Shown here: positions 5,607-26,964 of the stretch, piece after piece | Numbering within the stretch: position 1 is the first letter of the stretch | Layout of the letters: the number at the start of each line of letters is the position of its first letter | Assembly (NCBI GenBank): GCA_022774105.1 | Contig: JALFNY010000080.1 | Span: 1 to 34,316 of the forward strand | Origin: Prevotella sp. | Lineage (GTDB): Bacteria; Bacteroidota; Bacteroidia; Bacteroidales; Bacteroidaceae | Reading direction: 5' to 3' | DNA: 34,316 nt | Position numbers and translations under genes: made by a program | Notes under the pieces: generated by a model | Database searches by the model: none | What the model was told of the DNA's origin: nothing | Seen by the model: only the letters and a program-made list of their open reading frames with translations

Positions 5607-5815
5607 TTGTCACCATACTACTGTTGCCAATACTCTTCTACCAGCGGTGTATCAGTCCCTTCACACCCCCCTCCTGCCGTTTCACCCCTACCTGTTCAGA
5701 GTATGCACGGCAGGCAATAGTGAAGCACGGACCACTCCGAGGACTGTGGCTGGCGGTGAGACGGCTGCTCAGGTGCCACCCGTGGGGAGGCTCAGGATAT
5801 GACCCCGTGCCGTAA
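5594..5815 (+). CDS. yidD: Membrane protein insertion efficiency factor
   Basis: [58 protein letters not shown] is typical YidD. Overlaps rnpA. Confidence 0.95.
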
Positions 5816-5896
5816 TCAGCACCTGATAACAAAGTAAACAACGGCAGATTACACCGTAATCAGCACCTAATCACACCGCAATCAGCACCTGATTAC
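5811..5896. repeat. 22-bp palindromic intergenic repeat, locus A (3 units)
   Basis: CGTAATCAGCACCTGATAAC (5811-5830), CGTAATCAGCACCTAATCAC (5855-5874), CGCAATCAGCACCTGATTAC (5877-5896). Units 2 and 3 are 22 bp apart. Unit 1 contains the yidD stop codon TAA. Confidence 0.85.
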
Positions 5897-10761: not shown

Positions 10762-11619
10762 TTAGTTCTTGCTCTTGTATAGGGAATCTTGCGCCGCCCG
10801 CAACACTTCGAGTTGCTCGCGCATTGCAGTGTTGTCAATAACATATACGTCTCGCAGGTTGGCGAAGTCGGTATATAGTTGTACTTGCAACCGGTATGAC
10901 ACTCCGTCGGCAGAGTTTAGCACGTGAATGATTTTTCCTACCGCCACGCCTTCGGGGAAAACGGAGGAGTAACCCGATGTGACTACTCGCTCATAGAGAC
11001 GAAATCGCGCATGACGTGGTATGTCATCAACATAGGCAAGGTTGCTGTAACCGCCCTCCCAGTGCAGATGTCCGAAGTAACCGCGCCGTTCTATTTTGCA
11101 GTTTATGCTTGACAGACTGGACAATGCGGGTATCACCACGGAGTAATGTCTGCCTGCCATATATACTATTCCTACCACACCGTGCCCTGATATTACTCCC
11201 ATGTCCTTGTGAACACCGTCTGCCTCGCCTTTGTTGATGGTCAGGAAGTTGTCTTTTTTGTGTACTGTGTTTGAGACAACCTTTGCTTCTATCAGTTTGT
11301 AGGGTGCTGGATTCTTCAGCGTAGTGAGTGTTGTGGAGTCCATTCCGCTGCGTTCCAGTTCGGCGGAGAGGTCTTTTACTTGCTGTTCGAGGTATATGTT
11401 GCGGCGTGAGAGTTGCTCGTTCAGTTTTGTAAGGGCGAAGAATGACTGTATTTTTGATTCTGCCTCATATACTATTCCTGCCATACTGTTGGCGGAAGAT
11501 ATCCACACTGAACTTTGATAACTGTTGTATTTGAACAGCAGTATCATGCTCACTGTCTCCAGCAGTACGAGTACGAACCAGTGACTGTGTGATATAATGA
11601 AGTCTATTAGGTTACGCAT
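10762..11619 (-). CDS. mreC: Rod shape-determining protein MreC
   Basis: MRNLIDFIISHSHWFVLVLLETVSMILLF... plus KVVSNTVHKKDNFLTINKGEADGVHKDMGVISGHGVVGIV is the MreC pattern. ATG at 11619. Confidence 0.92.
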   Translation of the reverse strand: MRNLIDFIISHSHWFVLVLLETVSMILLFKYNSYQSSVWISSANSMAGIVYEAESKIQSFFALTKLNEQLSRRNIYLEQQVKDLSAELERSGMDSTTLTTLKNPAPYKLIEAKVVSNTVHKKDNFLTINKGEADGVHKDMGVISGHGVVGIVYMAGRHYSVVIPALSSLSSINCKIERRGYFGHLHWEGGYSNLAYVDDIPRHARFRLYERVVTSGYSSVFPEGVAVGKIIHVLNSADGVSYRLQVQLYTDFANLRDVYVIDNTAMREQLEVLRAAQDSLYKSKN

Positions 11620-11782
11620 GTTGTGGTGTGTGGTGATAGAAGTGTGGTGTAAGGCATAAAGAATTATGATTACCTTGCGGTCGTTTATGGACGTAAAGGG
11701 TATTGTTTCGTCCATACACGCAACTGGTAATCATAATTCTTGGAACGCTTTTCCTTTGTTTATAGGTGTGGGATGGGGTGTG

Positions 11783-12805
11783 TTATCTCATCAGGAAGGA
11801 GAAGCGGCCTATGTTTTTCAGGGCCACGCCGGCTCCTTTTGCTACGCTGCGTAGTGGGTCTTCCGCTATGTGGAAGGGTATTCCTATCTTTGCTTGCAGG
11901 CGTCTGTCCAGACCACGCAGCAGTGCTCCGCCTCCGCTTAGGTATATTCCGTTCTTCACTATGTCTGCATACAGCTCGGGAGGTGTGTTTTCTAAGGCTG
12001 ACAGCACGGCGTTCTCTACTTTTGCTACGGTCTTGTCTATGCAGTGGGCTATTTCTTGATAGCATACTGGGACTTCCATAGGTAGTGCTGTTATGCGGTT
12101 AGGACCGTGCACAATGTAGTCTTCTGGTGCTTCATCACCGAGGTCTGTCAGTGCGGAACCTACGTTGATTTTTATTCTTTCCGCCATTCTTTCTGACACT
12201 TTCACGTTGTGTTGACGTGCCATATACTCCTGTATGTCTGCGGTAAGTTCATCGCCTGCTACTCTTATTGAGTTGTTGCTGACGATGCCTCCGAGTGATA
12301 TTACGGCGATTTCTGTTGATCCTCCACCGATGTCAACAATCATGTTGCCCTCTGGGGCTTCCACGTCTATGCCGATACCTACGGCTGCTGCCATTGGCTC
12401 GAAGATGAGATACACGTCTCGTCCGTCTGCATGTTCGGCGGAATCACGCACTGCTCGCAGTTCTACCTCGGTTGAACCAGAAGGTACTCCTATCACCATA
12501 CGCAGTGAGGGAGTGAAAAGGTGTCTTCCGGTATGTACCATTTTGATAAGTCCGCGTATCATCATTTCACACGCGGAGAAGTCTGCAATGACGCCGTCAC
12601 GTAGTGGTCTTACCGTCTTGATGCGGTCGTTGGTCTTCTCGTACATGCTTTTTGCACGTTCGCCCACGGCTATCATCTGGTTGGTGTCACGGTCAATGGC
12701 GACTACTGAGGGCTGATCCACCACAATTTTGTCACCTGACATGATTATGGTGTTGGCCGTGCCGAGGTCCATCGCTATCTCTTGTACGAAAGAAAAGAAA
12801 CCCAT
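11783..12805 (-). CDS. mreB: Rod shape-determining protein MreB
   Basis: MDLGTANTIIMSGDKIVVDQPSVVAID, IGVPSGSTEVE, MIVDIGGGSTEIAVISLGGIV and GIYLSGGGALLRGLD are actin-fold MreB motifs. Confidence 0.97.
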   Translation of the reverse strand: MGFFSFVQEIAMDLGTANTIIMSGDKIVVDQPSVVAIDRDTNQMIAVGERAKSMYEKTNDRIKTVRPLRDGVIADFSACEMMIRGLIKMVHTGRHLFTPSLRMVIGVPSGSTEVELRAVRDSAEHADGRDVYLIFEPMAAAVGIGIDVEAPEGNMIVDIGGGSTEIAVISLGGIVSNNSIRVAGDELTADIQEYMARQHNVKVSERMAERIKINVGSALTDLGDEAPEDYIVHGPNRITALPMEVPVCYQEIAHCIDKTVAKVENAVLSALENTPPELYADIVKNGIYLSGGGALLRGLDRRLQAKIGIPFHIAEDPLRSVAKGAGVALKNIGRFSFLMR

Positions 12806-12867
12806 ATAGTTTATATTTGTGTTTTATGCGACGTGTGGGGCGTTGTGCCTGTGCGCCGTCTTTGTTG

Positions 12868-13470
12868 TTACTTGCTGGTCTTTTCAAACCAGGCGTTGAT
12901 GGCAGTGTCGTAATGTGAACTAACGCCGAAGGCACGTGTGGCAAACATTCTGCGCTCCTCGATGTCGGTCTCTGCGCCTTTCTTGTTCAGAATGTCAAGC
13001 AGAACGCTGTACTCGGACTTTGAAGGAACAATGACAACGTCCTTAAAGTTCTTGGCTCCTGCGCGTATAAGTGATATTCCGCCGATGTCAATCTTCTCTA
13101 TGATGTCAGCCTCGCTGGCTCCGCTTGCTACCGTCTGCTCAAATGGGTAGAGGTCAACTATCACGAGATCTATTTCTGGTATCTCGTATTTTGCCATCTG
13201 GTCAAGGTCGCCCTGCAACTCGCGACGTCCGAGTATGCCACCGAAAATCTTGGGGTGTAGTGTCTTCACGCGTCCACCGAGTATTGAAGGGTATGTCGTT
13301 ACGTTCTCCACTGCTTCGCACTCGAAGCCGAGAGACTCTATAAACTTCTGTGTACCGCCGGTTGAAAGGAACTTCACGCCCTCCTCATTCAGTTTGCTTA
13401 GCAACTCATCGAGGCCGTCTTTGTGGAATACACTGACGAGAGCCGTCTTGATTCTTTTTGTTTCTGCCAT
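12868..13470 (-). CDS. purH: IMP cyclohydrolase domain of PurH only (no AICAR transformylase domain)
   Basis: KTALVSVFHKDGLDELLSKLNEEGVKFLSTGGTQKFIE...GGRVKTLHPKIFGGIL...DLVIVDLYPFE...EKIDIGGISLIRAGAKNFKDVVIV...FGVSSHYDTAI is the PurH N-domain. Stops at 200 aa, followed closely by mreB. Confidence 0.9.
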   Translation of the reverse strand: MAETKRIKTALVSVFHKDGLDELLSKLNEEGVKFLSTGGTQKFIESLGFECEAVENVTTYPSILGGRVKTLHPKIFGGILGRRELQGDLDQMAKYEIPEIDLVIVDLYPFEQTVASGASEADIIEKIDIGGISLIRAGAKNFKDVVIVPSKSEYSVLLDILNKKGAETDIEERRMFATRAFGVSSHYDTAINAWFEKTSK

Positions 13471-13538
13471 TGTCGTAATATGATAAATATTAGAAGTTTA
13501 GGGGTGACGCATGAATAACGTGACCTCTGTTTTGGCTG

Positions 13539-13569
13539 CAAAGTTAGTAAAAAATAGGGAAAACCCAAA
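13539..13569 (-). promoter_or_regulatory. Bacteroidetes-type promoter of the purH-mreBCD-mrdA cluster
   Basis: Minus strand: TTTG (13569-13566), 19-nt spacer, TAACTTTG (13546-13539). Confidence 0.7.
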
Positions 13570-13616
13570 ATTTTTACACTTTAATTAATTATATTGCCTT
13601 AAAAGTTGACGCATTT

Positions 13617-13648
13617 ATTGTCCGTTACCAATAAAAGCATTACCTTTG
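13617..13648 (+). promoter_or_regulatory. Bacteroidetes-type promoter upstream of the rlpA-like gene
   Basis: ATTG (13617-13620), 20-nt spacer, TACCTTTG (13641-13648). Confidence 0.6.
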
Positions 13649-13676
13649 CAACAATAAACCAACCCACCTAAAACCT

Positions 13677-14261
13677 ATGCTGAGACTTCCACCATTTGTC
13701 TGGCGTGTGGCTCTGATGTCTGTGCTGTTGCTGATTACAGCCATGTTGTTACCCGCACAACAGAGAGGCAAAGCCTCATATTATTCACGTCGTGCCAACG
13801 GTGCACGCACCAGTAGCGGCGTTCGCCTCAATAATGATTCGCTGGTATGTGCCCACCGCACCTATGCCTTCGGCACCCTGCTCGATGTCAAGAATCCAGC
13901 CAACGGCAAGCAAGTTGTGGTCAAGGTCATTGACCGTGGGCCTCATACGCGCGGCAGGGTGATAGACCTTTCATACGAAGCGGCACGACAACTCGGCATA
14001 CTCGCTGCCGGCGTTGCGCTGGTGGAGGTGTCAGTACATGAAGAACTGAACGTGCCTTTCAAGAGCAAGGAGCCACATCACACCGAACTGGACCTCGAAC
14101 TGCCAGCCGGCAATGAAGACTTCGGACTGAAACCAGAATGGCAGCGTGACATGGAGAAGAAGAAAAATGAGGCCAAGCAGCACGACACCAAGAGCCAGCA
14201 GCACACTGACAGCAAGGCAGGAAATACAAACAAGAACAATCATTCAGGGAAAAAGAGATAA
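13677..14261 (+). CDS. Septal ring lytic transglycosylase RlpA-family protein
   Basis: Signal peptide; GKASYYSRRANGARTSSGVRLNNDSLVCAHRTYAFGTLLDVKNPANGKQVVVKVIDRGPHTRGRVIDLSYEAARQLGI is a double-psi beta-barrel RlpA motif. Lys/Gln-rich tail. Confidence 0.9.
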   Translation: MLRLPPFVWRVALMSVLLLITAMLLPAQQRGKASYYSRRANGARTSSGVRLNNDSLVCAHRTYAFGTLLDVKNPANGKQVVVKVIDRGPHTRGRVIDLSYEAARQLGILAAGVALVEVSVHEELNVPFKSKEPHHTELDLELPAGNEDFGLKPEWQRDMEKKKNEAKQHDTKSQQHTDSKAGNTNKNNHSGKKR

Positions 14262-14339
14262 CAATCCCGCCGTCCATACAAGGAGGGACACCCCCGACGA
14301 GGCAACGAACAAACGGGGAAAGGGAAAAAAACAACAACG

Positions 14340-15806
14340 ATGAAAGAGTACACCGACGCCGAACTGGCGCATATACTTGACAAAGACATATTCCATAAAA
14401 TATCAGACGCGGCGGACGAACTGCGCCTTGAATGTTATGTCGTGGGCGGATACGTCCGCGACATTTTTCTTGAACGCCCCTCTGACGACATTGACTGTGT
14501 GGTAGTAGGCTCAGGCATTGCCGTGGCAAAACGTCTCACCGCCATGCTCGGAAAGCGTGCACACCTGTCCGTGTTCAAAAACTTCGGTACGGCACAAGTA
14601 AAATATTATCCCCCCGGCACACGCTACAACCCGGAGAATCCCGATGAAGGAGCGGTAGAAGTAGAATTTGTCGGCGCACGCCGCGAGAGTTATCAGCGCA
14701 ACTCACGCAAGCCGATAGTAGAGGACGGAACGCTGGAAGACGACCAGAATCGCCGTGACTTCACTATCAATGCCATGGCTATCTGTCTCAACAAAGAACG
14801 CTTCGGCGAACTGGTTGACCCCTTCGGAGGACTTGATGACCTATGGGACGGTATCATACGCACACCCCTCGACCCGGACATAACGTTCAGTGACGACCCG
14901 TTACGTATGCTGCGCTGCATACGATTTGCCACAAGACTAAACTTCCTGATAGAGGACGAGACTTTTGAAGCACTCGGGCGCAACGCCGAGAGACTGAAGA
15001 TAATCAGTGCAGAACGCATCAGTGAAGAACTGGACAAGACCCTTCTCACCCGCACACCATCACGGGGCTTCGTGGACTTGCAACGCTCTGGACTGCTCGA
15101 CATAATCCTGCCGGAACTCTCGCAGATGGACATTGTGGAGACACGCAACGGCAAAGCCCACAAAAACAACTTCTACCACACCCTCGAAGTGCTTGACAAC
15201 GTAGCCCGAACCAGTGACAACCTCTGGTTGCGGTGGGCCGCACTGCTGCACGACATCGGCAAACCAAAGAGCAAACGGTGGGACAATCTGCTGGGATGGA
15301 CATTCCATGCCCATAACATAATAGGCGCAAAAATGGTGCCGACAATATTCCGCAGGCTCAAACTACCACTCGACACAAAACTAAAATACGTGCAGAAAAT
15401 GGTGGATATGCACATGCGTCCCATAGCCATAGCCGACAACGAAGTAACCGACAGTGCCGTGCGAAGGCTCGTAAACGATGCCGGCGATGACATAGACGAC
15501 CTCATGCTGCTGTGCGAGGCCGACATAACAAGCAAGAACCACGTACGCAAACAACGTTTCCTCGACAACTATCAACTCGTGCGGGAAAAGATAGAAGACC
15601 TCAAACAACGTGACTTCAAACGCCTGCTTCAGCCCGTAATAGACGGCAATGAGATAATGCAGATGTTCAATCTCAAACCTTCGCGAGAGGTAGGAGAACT
15701 CAAATCATACCTAAAAGACGCCGTCCTTGACAACCGCGTAGAGAACGAACGCGAGCCACTCATGCAGTTACTCATGCAGAAGGCCAAAGAGATGGGGATT
15801 GCATAA
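14340..15806 (+). CDS. cca: CCA tRNA nucleotidyltransferase / poly(A) polymerase-family protein with HD domain
   Basis: VVGGYVRDIFLERPSDDIDCVVVG, RRDFTINAMAI, DPLRMLRCIRFATRLNF and RWAALLHDIGKPKSK (HD). Confidence 0.93.
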   Translation: MKEYTDAELAHILDKDIFHKISDAADELRLECYVVGGYVRDIFLERPSDDIDCVVVGSGIAVAKRLTAMLGKRAHLSVFKNFGTAQVKYYPPGTRYNPENPDEGAVEVEFVGARRESYQRNSRKPIVEDGTLEDDQNRRDFTINAMAICLNKERFGELVDPFGGLDDLWDGIIRTPLDPDITFSDDPLRMLRCIRFATRLNFLIEDETFEALGRNAERLKIISAERISEELDKTLLTRTPSRGFVDLQRSGLLDIILPELSQMDIVETRNGKAHKNNFYHTLEVLDNVARTSDNLWLRWAALLHDIGKPKSKRWDNLLGWTFHAHNIIGAKMVPTIFRRLKLPLDTKLKYVQKMVDMHMRPIAIADNEVTDSAVRRLVNDAGDDIDDLMLLCEADITSKNHVRKQRFLDNYQLVREKIEDLKQRDFKRLLQPVIDGNEIMQMFNLKPSREVGELKSYLKDAVLDNRVENEREPLMQLLMQKAKEMGIA

Positions 15807-15855
15807 GCAGCAGGACACTTACGTCATAAGTACGGACGGAGGGGCAGAGAAATAC

Positions 15856-15905
15856 AAAAACAGATGCGTCAGCACATTCACCTAATGGCAGACGCATCTG
15901 TTTTT
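15856..15905. terminator. Bidirectional terminator after cca
   Basis: AAAAACAGATGCGTC (15856-15870) / GACGCATCTGTTTTT (15891-15905), perfect 15-bp stem ending in T5 on either strand. Confidence 0.85.
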
Positions 15906-16108
15906 CGTTACCGTAACGCAGTATATCCCCTGACGTGTCATGCGTATGTAACCAAGGCCTACGGTTTTTCCACCTCCCCAAGATATCTTACAGAGAAAAA
16001 AGACGAACATAATAACTGTACATCAGGTAATGTCAGACCGCCAAGACATAGCCTTGCGCAGAGACCCTTAGCCATATCCAACCCTCCTGATGATATATAG
16101 GCTATTTG

Positions 16109-16240
16109 CAAACAAGTGCAGATTACGCAGCAATCAGGTGCAGATTACACAACAATCAGGTGCAGATTACACCGCAATCAGGTGCTGATTACGCCGCAAT
16201 CAGGTGCAGATTACACCGTAATCAGTACCTGATTATAATG
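16109..16240. repeat. 22-bp palindromic intergenic repeat, locus B: six contiguous units
   Basis: Exact 22-bp register: 16109 CAAACAAGTGCAGATTACGCAG; 16131 CAATCAGGTGCAGATTACACAA; 16153 CAATCAGGTGCAGATTACACCG; 16175 CAATCAGGTGCTGATTACGCCG; 16197 CAATCAGGTGCAGATTACACCG; 16219 TAATCAGTACCTGATTATAATG. Confidence 0.95.
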
Positions 16241-16294
16241 AACGTCACACTCGCTACACACCCAAGCGAGCGTCGAGGATAAGGCAATAAAAAA

Positions 16295-16340
16295 ACTTGC
16301 AGGCAACAGTCTGTATGTGACAGAACTGCAACCTGCAAGT
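16295..16340 (-). terminator. Terminator of tRNA-Pro
   Basis: ACTTGCAGG (16295-16303) / CCTGCAAGT (16332-16340), followed on the minus strand by a T-run, just 3' of the tRNA. Confidence 0.75.
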
Positions 16341-16344
16341 ATTG

Positions 16345-16418
16345 TCGGGATGACCAGACTCGAACTGGCGACCACACGCCCCCCAGACGTGTACGCTAAC
16401 CAACTGCGCTACATCCCG
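16345..16418 (-). tRNA. tRNA-Pro (anticodon GGG)
   Basis: Minus strand CGGGATGTAGCGCAGTTGGTTAGCGTACACGTCTGGGGGGCGTGTGGTCGCCAGTTCGAGTCTGGTCATCCCGA. Acceptor CGGGATG/CATCCCG, anticodon loop CTGGGGG. Confidence 0.92.
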
Positions 16419-16470
16419 ATTGCAATAAGAAAAACCGCGTTAAAACAACGCTTCTCCCCATAAGCGAGTG

Positions 16471-16502
16471 CAAAGTTACACAGAAAAAATGAGCCAGCCA
16501 AA
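16471..16502 (-). promoter_or_regulatory. Bacteroidetes-type promoter for tRNA-Pro
   Basis: Minus strand TTTG (16502-16499), 20-nt spacer, TAACTTTG (16478-16471). Confidence 0.75.
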
Positions 16503-16559
16503 TCTTTTCTCACCTTTTTGATGAAAAAATGTGAAATAGAAAAAATTTATATGATAATG

Positions 16560-16591
16560 TTTGTACGTGTGAGAAAGATGTCGTAATTTTG
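16560..16591 (+). promoter_or_regulatory. Bacteroidetes-type promoter for aroA
   Basis: TTTG (16560-16563), 20-nt spacer, TAATTTTG (16584-16591). Confidence 0.75.
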
Positions 16592-16661
16592 TCTTATAGT
16601 TGCAAGGCACGTAGAAACACGGCCTTGCAGGCACTAAAACAGACAAAAAAACAACAACGCA

Positions 16662-17918
16662 ATGCAATATATATTGACAGCACCTCGCACCATGAACTGC
16701 GAGATTACGTTGCCAGCATCAAAGAGTATCAGCAACCGCGCACTCATAATAAACGCCTTGGCCGGAGGCAAGGAGCACCCAGAGAACCTCAGCCAGTGTG
16801 ATGATACAGACGTGATGGTGGCAGCACTGCGAGATATGCCATACGAAATAAACGTAAAAGCCGCAGGGACAGCAATGCGTTTCACCACAGCACTGCTGTC
16901 GGTAGGTAGCGGCGAGCACGTAATCACGGGCACAGAGCGCATGAAACACCGCCCGATTACCGTGTTGGTGGAGGCATTGCGCGCACTCGGAGCAGACATA
17001 GAATATATGGAGGAACAAGGCTTTCCACCATTGCGCATACGCGGACGACAACTGGAAGGCGGCAGGCTGGACATAGCCGGCAACGTGTCATCACAGTACA
17101 TATCAGCACTTCTGATGATAGGCCCTGTGATGAAGAACGGGCTGACGCTCCATCTGACAGGCGATATCATATCACGCCCGTACATAGACCTTACAATTTG
17201 CACCATGCAGGAGTTCGGGGCAGACGTGGAGTGGGAAGACTCCGCCACCATAGCAGTAAGACCACAGCCGTACAAAGCAGTGCCGTTCTATATAGAAAAC
17301 GACTGGAGCGCATCATCATATTGGTATGAAATGCTCGCCCTCATGAGTGACGAAGACAGCGAGGTGCGCCTGCCAGGACTGATGGATGGCAGCAGGCAGG
17401 GTGACTCCGCAATACGTTACATCTTCATGATGCTCGGTATCAAGACACGATTCGGTGACAAAGCACAAGGAAAAACCACCATGGTGACGCTCAACTCACA
17501 ACGCAGAGCACTGCCACGCTTTGACTTTAACTTCATAAACCAGCCCGACCTGGCACAGACCGTGGTGGTGGCAACAGCCCTATGCGGCGTCCCCTTCCGC
17601 TTCAGTGGCTTGCAGACACTGCGCATAAAGGAGACAGACCGCATAGCAGCACTTAAATATGAAATGTCAAAATTAGGCTATGTGCTCGACGATTCAGAAG
17701 AAGGCGTGCTGTCATGGGACGGTACCCGATGCGAAGCAATGGCCGAACCCGTGATAGACACATACGAAGACCACCGCATGGCCATGGCATTCGCACCAGC
17801 AGCGATAGTATATCCCGGACTGGCGATAAACAATCCCGAAGTAGTCTCAAAGAGTTATCCACACTACTGGGATGACCTAAAAAAAGCAGGGTGGACCATT
17901 GACGAAATTAAGAACTAA
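16662..17918 (+). CDS. aroA: 3-phosphoshikimate 1-carboxyvinyltransferase (EPSP synthase)
   Basis: LPASKSISNRALIINALA, NVKAAGTAMRFTTALLS, GNVSSQYISALLMIGP, LRIKETDRIAALKYEMSKLG and TYEDHRMAMAFAP. Confidence 0.95.
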   Translation: MQYILTAPRTMNCEITLPASKSISNRALIINALAGGKEHPENLSQCDDTDVMVAALRDMPYEINVKAAGTAMRFTTALLSVGSGEHVITGTERMKHRPITVLVEALRALGADIEYMEEQGFPPLRIRGRQLEGGRLDIAGNVSSQYISALLMIGPVMKNGLTLHLTGDIISRPYIDLTICTMQEFGADVEWEDSATIAVRPQPYKAVPFYIENDWSASSYWYEMLALMSDEDSEVRLPGLMDGSRQGDSAIRYIFMMLGIKTRFGDKAQGKTTMVTLNSQRRALPRFDFNFINQPDLAQTVVVATALCGVPFRFSGLQTLRIKETDRIAALKYEMSKLGYVLDDSEEGVLSWDGTRCEAMAEPVIDTYEDHRMAMAFAPAAIVYPGLAINNPEVVSKSYPHYWDDLKKAGWTIDEIKN

Positions 17919-17927
17919 AACAACAAC

Positions 17928-20900
17928 TTGAGAAAGATACTGCCACATACCCTGCTGATGCTGTGCCTCGCCATATTCGCAGCCTCGTGTTCCACCAAAA
18001 AGAACACGAGCGCAACCCGTTTCTGGCACGGATTCACCGCAAGGTACAACACATATTATAATGGTACGCTGGCATATATCGACGCATCACTTGAAAAAGA
18101 AAACGGCAACAAGGACAACTACACAGAACGCCTGCCACTATACACCGTAGGAAACAAAGCCAGTCGCGAACTCGGAAAAGCCAACTACGACATCGCTATC
18201 ACCAAGAGTAAGAAAGCAATACAGATGCATAGCATCAAGGCCAAGCCCACATGGACAAAGAACCGGCGCAAGACAGCAAAAGACATAGAGTGGCTTTCAA
18301 GAAAAGAATACAACCCCTTCCTATGGAAAGCGTGGATGCTCATGGGACGATCACAATTCTATCAAGGCAATTTTGATGAGGCTGCCGCCACATTCTCATA
18401 CATGTCACGCCTGTATAAAGGCCAACCCGCCATCTACGGAAAGGCAAGAGCATGGCTGGCAAAATGCTACATAGAAAGCGATTGGCTGTATGATGCCGAA
18501 GACGTAATACGCAATATGCAGCGTGACAGCATAGACTGGAGAGCGCAAAAAGAATGGGATTACACCCTCTGCGACTACTACCTGCACACCAATGACCTGC
18601 CGAAAGCAGCAGAATACCTACGCAAGGTCATTAAGCATGAGATGCGTTCAAAGCAGAAAGCACGTGAATATTACCTGCTCGGACAAGTAGAAGCCGCGCA
18701 GGGAAACACGCAGGCAGCATACAAAGCATTCCAGAAAGTGGTGAGACAGAACCCTCCTTACGAGTTAGAATTTAACGCTCGCATCTCCATGACGGAAGTG
18801 TCTGCAAAGGGACAAGCACGTAAGATGATAGGAAAGTTGCGCAGAATGGCGCGCAATGACAACAACAAAGACTACCTTGATCAGGTATATTACGCCATTG
18901 GCAACATCTATCTGGCAGAGAAAGACACCGTAAACGCCATCATATCATACGAGAAAGGCAACGCTAAAGCCACGCGTTCAGGCATAGAAAAAGGCGTATT
19001 GCTGTTGCATCTTGGTGACCTTTACTGGCAATTAGAACGATATGGCGACGCAAGACGCTGCTACGGCGAGGCAATAGGACTGTTAGACAAGGAGCGACCA
19101 GATTACAATACCCTTGCCGAACGCTCGAAGGTACTTGACGAACTGGTGCCATACACCGATGCAGTGCACCTGCAAGACTCACTGCAAGCATTGGCAAAGA
19201 TGAGCGAAGAGGAGCGCAATGAGGCGATAGATCGCGTCATTGAAGCCCTAAAACAGCAGGAAAGGGAGGAGGAAGAGAAGGCTGCCGAGATAGAAGTGCA
19301 GCAGAGACAGCAGAAGTATGGGTCCAACCTCGGTAAAAAAACGGAACTGAACACACCGCGAAATGTCACTGCCCAGAACAGAAACGCAGCGTGGTACTTC
19401 TACAATCCGCAACTGGTTCAGCAGGGAAAGCAGATATTCCAGCGCACGTGGGGCAAGCGTGAGAACACGGATAACTGGCAACGGTATAACAAAACCGTGG
19501 TGGGCGACTTCGCAAATGGGGCTGATGACACCGCAATATTGACCGACGAACAACGTGATTCCATCATGGCGGTGGAGGAGCAGCAGCGCATTGAGGAGGA
19601 AAGAATGGACTCTGCGGTCAACAATCCGCACAAGAGAGAGTATTACATGGCGCAGATACCGTTCACGGAGGAGGCTGTTGCCGCCAGTAACGATATCATA
19701 AAGGACGGCCTTTTCCACTCTGCCGTTATCTTCAAGGATAAACTTGACAACCTGCCACTGAGCGAAAAGGCGTTCATGAGGCTACTGGAGCAGTATGAGG
19801 ATTTTACTCCTAAGGACGAGGTCTATTACCATCTCTACCTGCTTTACTCACGGATTGGCCGGCCGATGGAGGCTCGGCGGTATCTGGGTAACCTCAAGAC
19901 GGAGTACCCCGAGTCGCAGTGGACCAGGTTATTGTCAGACCCTTACTTTGCTGAAAATGCCCGTTATGGCAAGCATTTGGAGGATTCTATCTACGGAGCG
20001 ACATACACTGCCTTCAAGGAGGACCGTTTCCAGGAGGTGTATGACAATGCGGCGGTGTCAGAAGAACGTTTCCCTCTTGGTGCAAACCGTGACAGATTCA
20101 TTTTCATAAAGGGCCTCACCCGTCTCAATGACGGCTATCCTACAGAGTGCGTTGCGGCTATGGAGACCGTGGTGAAAGACTACCCGGAGAGCCCTGTGGC
20201 AGAGATGGCGGGAATGATAATAAACGGTGTCAGGGAGGGTAAGCGCCTGCGAGGTGCCAAGTTTGACCTCTCTGACGTGTGGAACAGGCGCAGCATGGTG
20301 CAGGAAGGGGCTGACAGCATGGCGAACAGGGTCTTCTCGCCAGAGCGTGAGACGGAGTTCATGTTCATTATGGCCTATCAGCCCGACTCGATAGACGAGA
20401 ATAAGTTGCTGTTCCAGATGGCGCGCTATAACTTTACGAGTTTCCTTGTGCGGAACTTTGACATCACCATTGAGGACGTTTACGGTATGCACCACCTCAC
20501 TGTCAGTGGTTTCCGCAACTTCGGAGAGGCTCGTCAGTATGCAAAGATGTTGTTACAGCAGGAGGGAATACGGCGGACAGCAGGCCACAGCAGGCCAATC
20601 GTGATAAGCAGGGATAACCTTGAACTGATAGGAAGCAGGTACAGTTACAACGATTATGACACGTTCTATGTCAAGAACTTCGCTCCGCTGCCTGTCACAA
20701 ATGTAGAACAACTCTACGAACCCGTGCTGACAAAGGACGAGAAGGTACAGGCTGACGATGCCGTACAACCACTGCTGCCAACCGAAGAGGTGGCACCAGG
20801 AGGCGCAAAGCCTGTTGAACCGAAGGGCGAAGAGGCACTTGACGAGGGGGAACTGATACCTCTGCCTGCCGAGACGGAGGTGGTATTGCCTGCCGAGACG

Positions 20901-21623: not shown

Positions 21624-21693
21624 CCTTACCCTTCCCTCCGTCAAAGCAGACTGGCAGGCGCAGGGTGCGATGCTGACATTCTTGTAAAAGCAC

Positions 21694-21768
21694 GCTGATT
21701 ACATTGCAAACAGGTGCTGATTACTTGGTAAAAGAGCCCCTTTCACCAAGTAATCAGCACCTGTTTGC
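21694..21768. repeat. 22-bp palindromic intergenic repeat, locus C, folded into a 24-bp perfect hairpin
   Basis: GCTGATTAC at 21694 and 21716 (22 bp apart). GCAAACAGGTGCTGATTACTTGGT (21706-21729) is the exact reverse complement of ACCAAGTAATCAGCACCTGTTTGC (21745-21768), followed by TTTT. Lies between convergent trxA and tsaE. Confidence 0.92.
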
Positions 21769-26746: not shown

Positions 26747-26848
26747 CGAAATTTTTTTCGTAAAATGTGCAATAATGGGTAAAAAGTGTGGGTTAAAATC
26801 TGATTAGGTCTGACGCCTTGTCTTGGCTGTTGTTGTGGGGGGAGATGT

Positions 26849-26930
26849 GAACAGGTGCTGATTGCGTTGTAATCAGGTGCTTTTCACTGTGTAATCAGCA
26901 CTTGTTTGCTATGTAATCAGCACTTGTTTA
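26849..26930. repeat. 22-bp palindromic intergenic repeat, locus D (two forward and two reverse units)
   Basis: AGGTGC at 26853 and 26875 (22 bp apart); GTAATCAGCACTTGTTT at 26891 and 26913 (22 bp apart). Confidence 0.88.
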
Positions 26931-26964
26931 CGGCGTTGTGGGGGTGTTATGGTGTTGTGGTGTG

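Follow-up and report, generated by a model that had tools for sequence, protein, structure and literature searches.

Tandem 22-bp arrays as candidate phase anchors for a kilobase-range 10.98-bp A/T periodicity in a gut Prevotella

A six-copy tandem repeat between cca and a tRNA-Pro gene in a gut Prevotella sp. belongs to a family of phased, usually four-copy, 22-bp elements with hundreds of units in the genome. Each element appears to set the phase of a precise 10.98-bp alternation of A/T and G/C content that reaches at least 2.6 kb on both sides, passes through genes, and switches to the phase of the neighbouring element near the midpoint between the two. These data suggest that the arrays could be sequence-specific anchors of a continuous DNA-wrapping or DNA-bending nucleoid structure, as if the chromosome were laid on a regular chromatin-like scaffold pinned at these sites. 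Genomes are denoted here as G000 (the genome studied, a 2.2-Mb draft, 84% complete), G021 (a sister, about 94% identical) and G438 (Prevotella sp. RGIG8630, about 78% identical in coding DNA); other congeners carry analogous numbers, and L numbers denote individual sequence stretches. The window is the whole 34,316-nucleotide stretch of G000 that was analysed.

A family of phased arrays with a rule of four

The starting point was an earlier note describing six contiguous, gap-free 22-bp units in the window, and this observation proved correct. Six such units are present (tandem repeat detection with TRF, 16108-16225, period 22), and their natural register is a 19-bp near-palindrome, G[TC]AATCAG-GTG-CTGATTAC, plus a 3-bp linker, with cores on the plus strand at 16108, 16130, 16152, 16174, 16196 and 16218 (array 16108-16240; five '+' centres and one '-', orientation string +++++-). 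The finer details also hold: three of the four inner units have GTGCAGATT, and the GATTAC...GTAATC dyad is complete only at the junction of units 5 and 6. The array lies between the convergent cca (tRNA nucleotidyltransferase, 14340-15806, plus strand; PF01743/PF12627/PF01966) and tRNA-Pro (GGG; 16344-16418, minus strand). Each gene has a visible hairpin with a T-run (15856-15905 for cca; about 16290-16340, minus strand, for the tRNA), although a simple consensus terminator scan did not list these two, whose loops exceed its limit. The repeat is far beyond chance, with 16 matches to the unit in the window at up to 3 mismatches versus 0.15 expected, and 346 in the genome versus 2 for the reversed pattern.

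Two corrections to the note are required. First, the array is not unique, as the window contains three more: a four-unit array at 5812-5896 (-+--) between yidD and tyrS, a four-unit array at 21684-21768 (one unit degenerate) between the convergent trxA and a minus-strand gene, and a four-unit array at 26847-26931 (++--) between two minus-strand genes. The latter two are shared with G021. Second, six units are atypical. In 399 kb of G000, in stretches chosen because they hold hits so that density there is biased upward, arrays average one per about 7 kb and 46 of 60 have exactly four units, with sharp borders. Unit phase is near-absolute, with 172 of 179 neighbouring units exactly 22 bp apart and none at 21 or 23, even though the asymmetric centre (GTG or CAC) points either way. 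In G438, 74 of 82 multi-unit arrays have four units, and 42 multi-unit arrays lie in 320 contiguous kb, one per 7.7 kb. The note had proposed copy number at the syntenic locus as a check for VNTR behaviour, and had named variable phasing and a lack of conservation in close relatives as grounds for rejecting its reading. The orthologous locus in G021 has four units in orientation ++--. The site is shared with the closest relative, the phasing is constrained, and copy number can change by whole units; six is most likely a recent local expansion. Freely variable copy number, as for a typical VNTR or simple tandem repeat, is not what we observe, since four units dominate in three genomes.

The interpretation offered in the note, that selection or duplication acts on one dyad and that termination alone does not explain the array, is only partly supported. 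Termination alone indeed does not account for it, but selection on one special dyad is not supported. Across 133 four-unit elements of three genomes, neighbouring half-sites are anti-correlated at their variable positions (z about -3 to -5), the opposite of compensatory pairing, so neither the intra-unit nor the cross-unit hairpin is what is conserved. Adjacent half-sites avoid being perfectly complementary, perhaps to prevent hairpin instability or because the reader protein needs asymmetric units. The same result makes it very unlikely that the arrays are RNA elements, i.e. tandem hairpins acting as terminators or mRNA 3'-end stabilisers. The idealised consensus does fold extremely well and many arrays lie close to stop codons, but an Rfam search gave no match, and a transcript-level role cannot phase flanking genes.

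Arrays are mostly intergenic, enriched between convergent genes (17 arrays against 20 such gaps) and scarce between divergent ones (6 against 25), and several overlap stop codons. The yidD stop codon TAA lies within the first unit of the second array (window 5811-5830), and several genes elsewhere end on the TGA of GCTGATTAC. Many positions are shared between G000 and G438, although their noncoding DNA is barely alignable. Sequence at a shared position can nevertheless be replaced, as orthologous elements of the two sister species range from 94% to 62% identity, the latter (L049:1441/L174:619) being the level of unrelated copies. Two elements, at L038:10957 and L038:16536, flank a ~5.9-kb segment that G438 lacks (L211), where it has a single element; arrays may be recombination or insertion borders.

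The dispersed and intergenic occurrence and the sequence turnover could suggest REP/BIME-like repeats, spread by a transposase or by copying and acting at most as 3'-end or supercoiling elements, with the periodicity being a separate property of these genomes. While the elements are indeed short, dispersed, multicopy extragenic palindromes, no Y1/RAYT transposase (PF01797) was found in the 84% complete G000, the unit consensus has no GTAG- or CGTC-type tag at one end (PMC3733652), and the four-unit rule and shared positions hold over deep divergence. Phase-locking of kilobases of flanking coding DNA and the midpoint switch described below are not expected of passive repeats either, and we consider this explanation unlikely. 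No copies were found in viral contigs (exact pattern), plasmids or phages. For a MITE or other inserted element, we observed that the outer half-sites GYAAAAGG are inverted in G438 but detected no target-site duplication, which leaves this possibility undecided; clean empty sites could not be found because the noncoding DNA is too diverged. In G438 elements (e.g. L197:1498, L216:4636) the outermost half-sites are GYAAAAGG and the inner ones GYAATCAG, resembling the unit of another species (G419, GTAAAAGG-TGC-CCTTTTGC), possibly a snapshot of changing specificity.

A 10.98-bp periodicity in phase with the arrays

Scanning the flanks showed base preferences in phase with the units far outside the arrays. 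A flank motif seen at first in G438 turned out to be the weak in-phase continuation of this pattern, and a reading of the flanks as degenerate extra units was replaced when half-unit offsets also scored. The preferences resolve into an ~11-bp alternation of A/T and G/C content, with an amplitude of about 0.05 near the element and 0.03 at 2.6 kb. Measured coherently from all elements, the spectrum peaks at 10.98 bp in both G000 and G438, with amplitudes of 0.039 and 0.036 versus 0.006 and 0.004 for random anchors; as with all our statistics, these come from draft genomes and our own gene calls. The sister G021 gives the same phase (amplitude 0.042, -139 degrees). All four arrays of the window show the signal, and taken alone they give the same phase. 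The territory of the focal array, taken as the midpoints to its neighbours (11001-18959), gives an amplitude of 0.043 at -127 degrees, 4.8 sigma on a phase fixed beforehand from the genome-wide data, which include this window.

The periodicity is strongest at codon position 3 (0.070-0.073) and weaker at positions 1 and 2, strong at fourfold-degenerate sites (0.066-0.082), and of similar phase for genes pointing either way, ruling out protein amphipathicity as its source. AA and TT peak together and GC half a turn away, with a relative amplitude of about 0.2, the pattern known for DNA bent around protein. The A/T peaks fall where a continuation of those in the units would put them. Between sisters, no periodicity in substitution rate was detected, while A/T content at codon position 3 runs from 0.35 to 0.55 with phase in both, so that the composition and not the overall rate is phased.

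An important question is whether the elements set this phase, or settled as passengers into a pre-existing helical lattice such as a supercoiling or curvature code. The latter draws support from the ~11-bp periodicity at third codon positions described for bacteria and cyanobacteria (PMC4132750, PMC3940949). However, a pre-existing continuous lattice would stay coherent across the next element. Instead, within gaps between neighbouring elements, the left part follows the left element and the right part the right one, crossing over about halfway, and distances between elements are not multiples of the period, which also led us to reject a global quantised lattice. Moreover, previously described signals have about 100-bp coherence (PMC4132750). 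We therefore read the elements as setting the phase, and the passenger explanation appears improbable. As an anchor-free control with elements masked, plain autocorrelation of A/T content holds the 10.98-bp period to lags of 2.5–4 kb in G000 and 4–6 kb in G438, whereas 100 kb of E. coli K-12 shows little beyond 130 bp and twelve non-periodic congeners do not show it.

Distribution across the genus

In 20-kb samples of other species, the same period is present in G012, G017, G026, G046 and G053, weakly in G006, and absent in twelve others, i.e. about a third of the sampled congeners show it. Most of the periodic species carry their own 22-bp tetrads with different cores, for example GTAAAAGC-TAT-GCTTTTAC in G012 and GCAAAACC-TAC-GCTTTTAC in G017. 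In G053, long 22-bp and 44-bp GC-rich tandem repeats (GCTCGTCCCTCGTTTGCTTGTC; L313:13172-13287 and 17146-17277) lie next to a normal tetrad. A core-independent frame, GYAA-N11-TTRC-N3-GYAA-N11-TTRC, finds such arrays in 122 of 398 congeners, with up to 252 pairs per genome and a clean control in most, and is at background in the other sampled genera of the family. Some congeners (G058, G235, G276, G224 and G265) have 100–290 hits of the reversed control frame CRTT-N11-AAYG at 22-bp spacing, suggesting tetrads with a different frame.

The link between tetrads and periodicity is incomplete. Phase tests on the foreign tetrads point the same way in most cases but are only modestly significant (p about 0.03; G006 and G026 fail). 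G001 has many arrays but a very weak lattice (amplitude 0.008), G016 and G010 have frame arrays but no periodicity in the 20 kb sampled, and G012, G026 and G046 show strong periodicity with few frame hits. G003 has a clear four-unit 22-bp palindromic array (GTTAACACATACGTGTCAC type, L295:3696) without a detectable lattice. No trans-acting factor was found: HU (PF00216) and AsnC/Lrp (PF01037) proteins occur in all 18 genomes compared, periodic and non-periodic alike, so that their presence is uninformative, and the histone fold (PF00808) occurs in 0 of 18. Protein binding at the arrays was not assayed.

A possible nucleoid scaffold and its closest parallels

Our preferred explanation, to which we give a probability of roughly 0.6, is that each array is a sequence-specific anchor of four adjacent 22-bp dyad sites, two helical turns each, on one face of the helix. 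The anchor would fix the rotational setting of a regular nucleoprotein structure that extends outward in both directions, at a constant 10.98 bp per turn, until it meets the structure from the next anchor, giving domains of roughly 7 kb. In this view the extra two units of the focal array, adding 44 bp or about four turns, leave the phase unchanged. What the sequences themselves demonstrate is the four-unit rule, the phase lock, the 10.98-bp period, the AA/TT-versus-GC alternation, the midpoint hand-over and the strength at synonymous sites. By contrast, it is our inference that a protein, as yet unidentified, binds the tetrad (probably as four dimers), that a regular protein-DNA lattice and not naked DNA carries the phase for hundreds of turns, and that the base pattern is its evolutionary footprint, through either selection for bendability or a face-dependent mutation/repair bias; whether mutation or selection writes the pattern is open.

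The helical repeat of 10.98 bp, above the 10.5 of relaxed DNA, fits untwisted or right-handedly wrapped/plectonemic DNA. This could also suggest that each tetrad is the strongly bent apex of one supercoiled loop, whose arms interwind to the midpoint base, with the period reflecting negative supercoiling rather than a protein coat. A period above 10.5 bp is the expectation for plectonemic DNA (PMC4132750), and the territories are symmetric and span several kb. However, naked DNA should lose rotational register through sequence-dependent twist and thermal fluctuation well before 2–4 kb, an argument from general polymer physics that we did not test, so some regular protein scaffold still seems needed and the apex model is doubtful. 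The most far-reaching version of our explanation, which we regard as about as likely as not, is a true bacterial chromatin, in which a rapidly evolving, species-specific DNA-binding protein nucleates at 22-bp tetrads and organises the chromosome into domains of several kb of continuously, rotationally positioned DNA, leaving its footprint in synonymous sites.

If our reading holds, DNA in these gut species is held in a fixed rotational setting over kilobases with sequence-defined anchors, making the long-standing question of what the 11-bp periodicity of bacterial genomes means directly testable. It would also provide a genomic readout of nucleoid architecture, a constraint on codon choice unrelated to translation, and a system in which hundreds of binding sites and their unknown protein change together between species. 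Literature searches, within an open-access library, found no description of these arrays or of kilobase phase locking.

Among known systems, phased multi-dimer operators and centromeres (Lrp/AsnC octamers, ParR-parC) likewise have several adjacent, helically phased palindromic sites for dimers, but here there are hundreds of copies per chromosome and an effect reaching kilobases; no link to AsnC was found, and ParR was not examined. REP/BIME extragenic palindromes (PMC3733652) are also short, clustered, species-specific and present in hundreds per genome, but the present elements differ in their fixed 22-bp phase, four-unit rule and phase-locked flanks. The nucleosome positioning signal shares the antiphase of AA/TT and GC dinucleotides along the helix, but has a period of about 10.2 rather than 10.98 bp, whereas the pattern described here is bacterial and continuous over kilobases without linkers. 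Finally, the ~11-bp A/T periodicity or 'structural code' of bacterial and cyanobacterial genomes (PMC4132750, PMC3940949) is similar in period, in its strength at third codon positions and in its link to nucleoid structure. Those signals are described as ~100 bp long, with no sequence-defined origin that we could find, while here the register holds for kilobases at 10.98 bp and appears to be set by specific repeat arrays.
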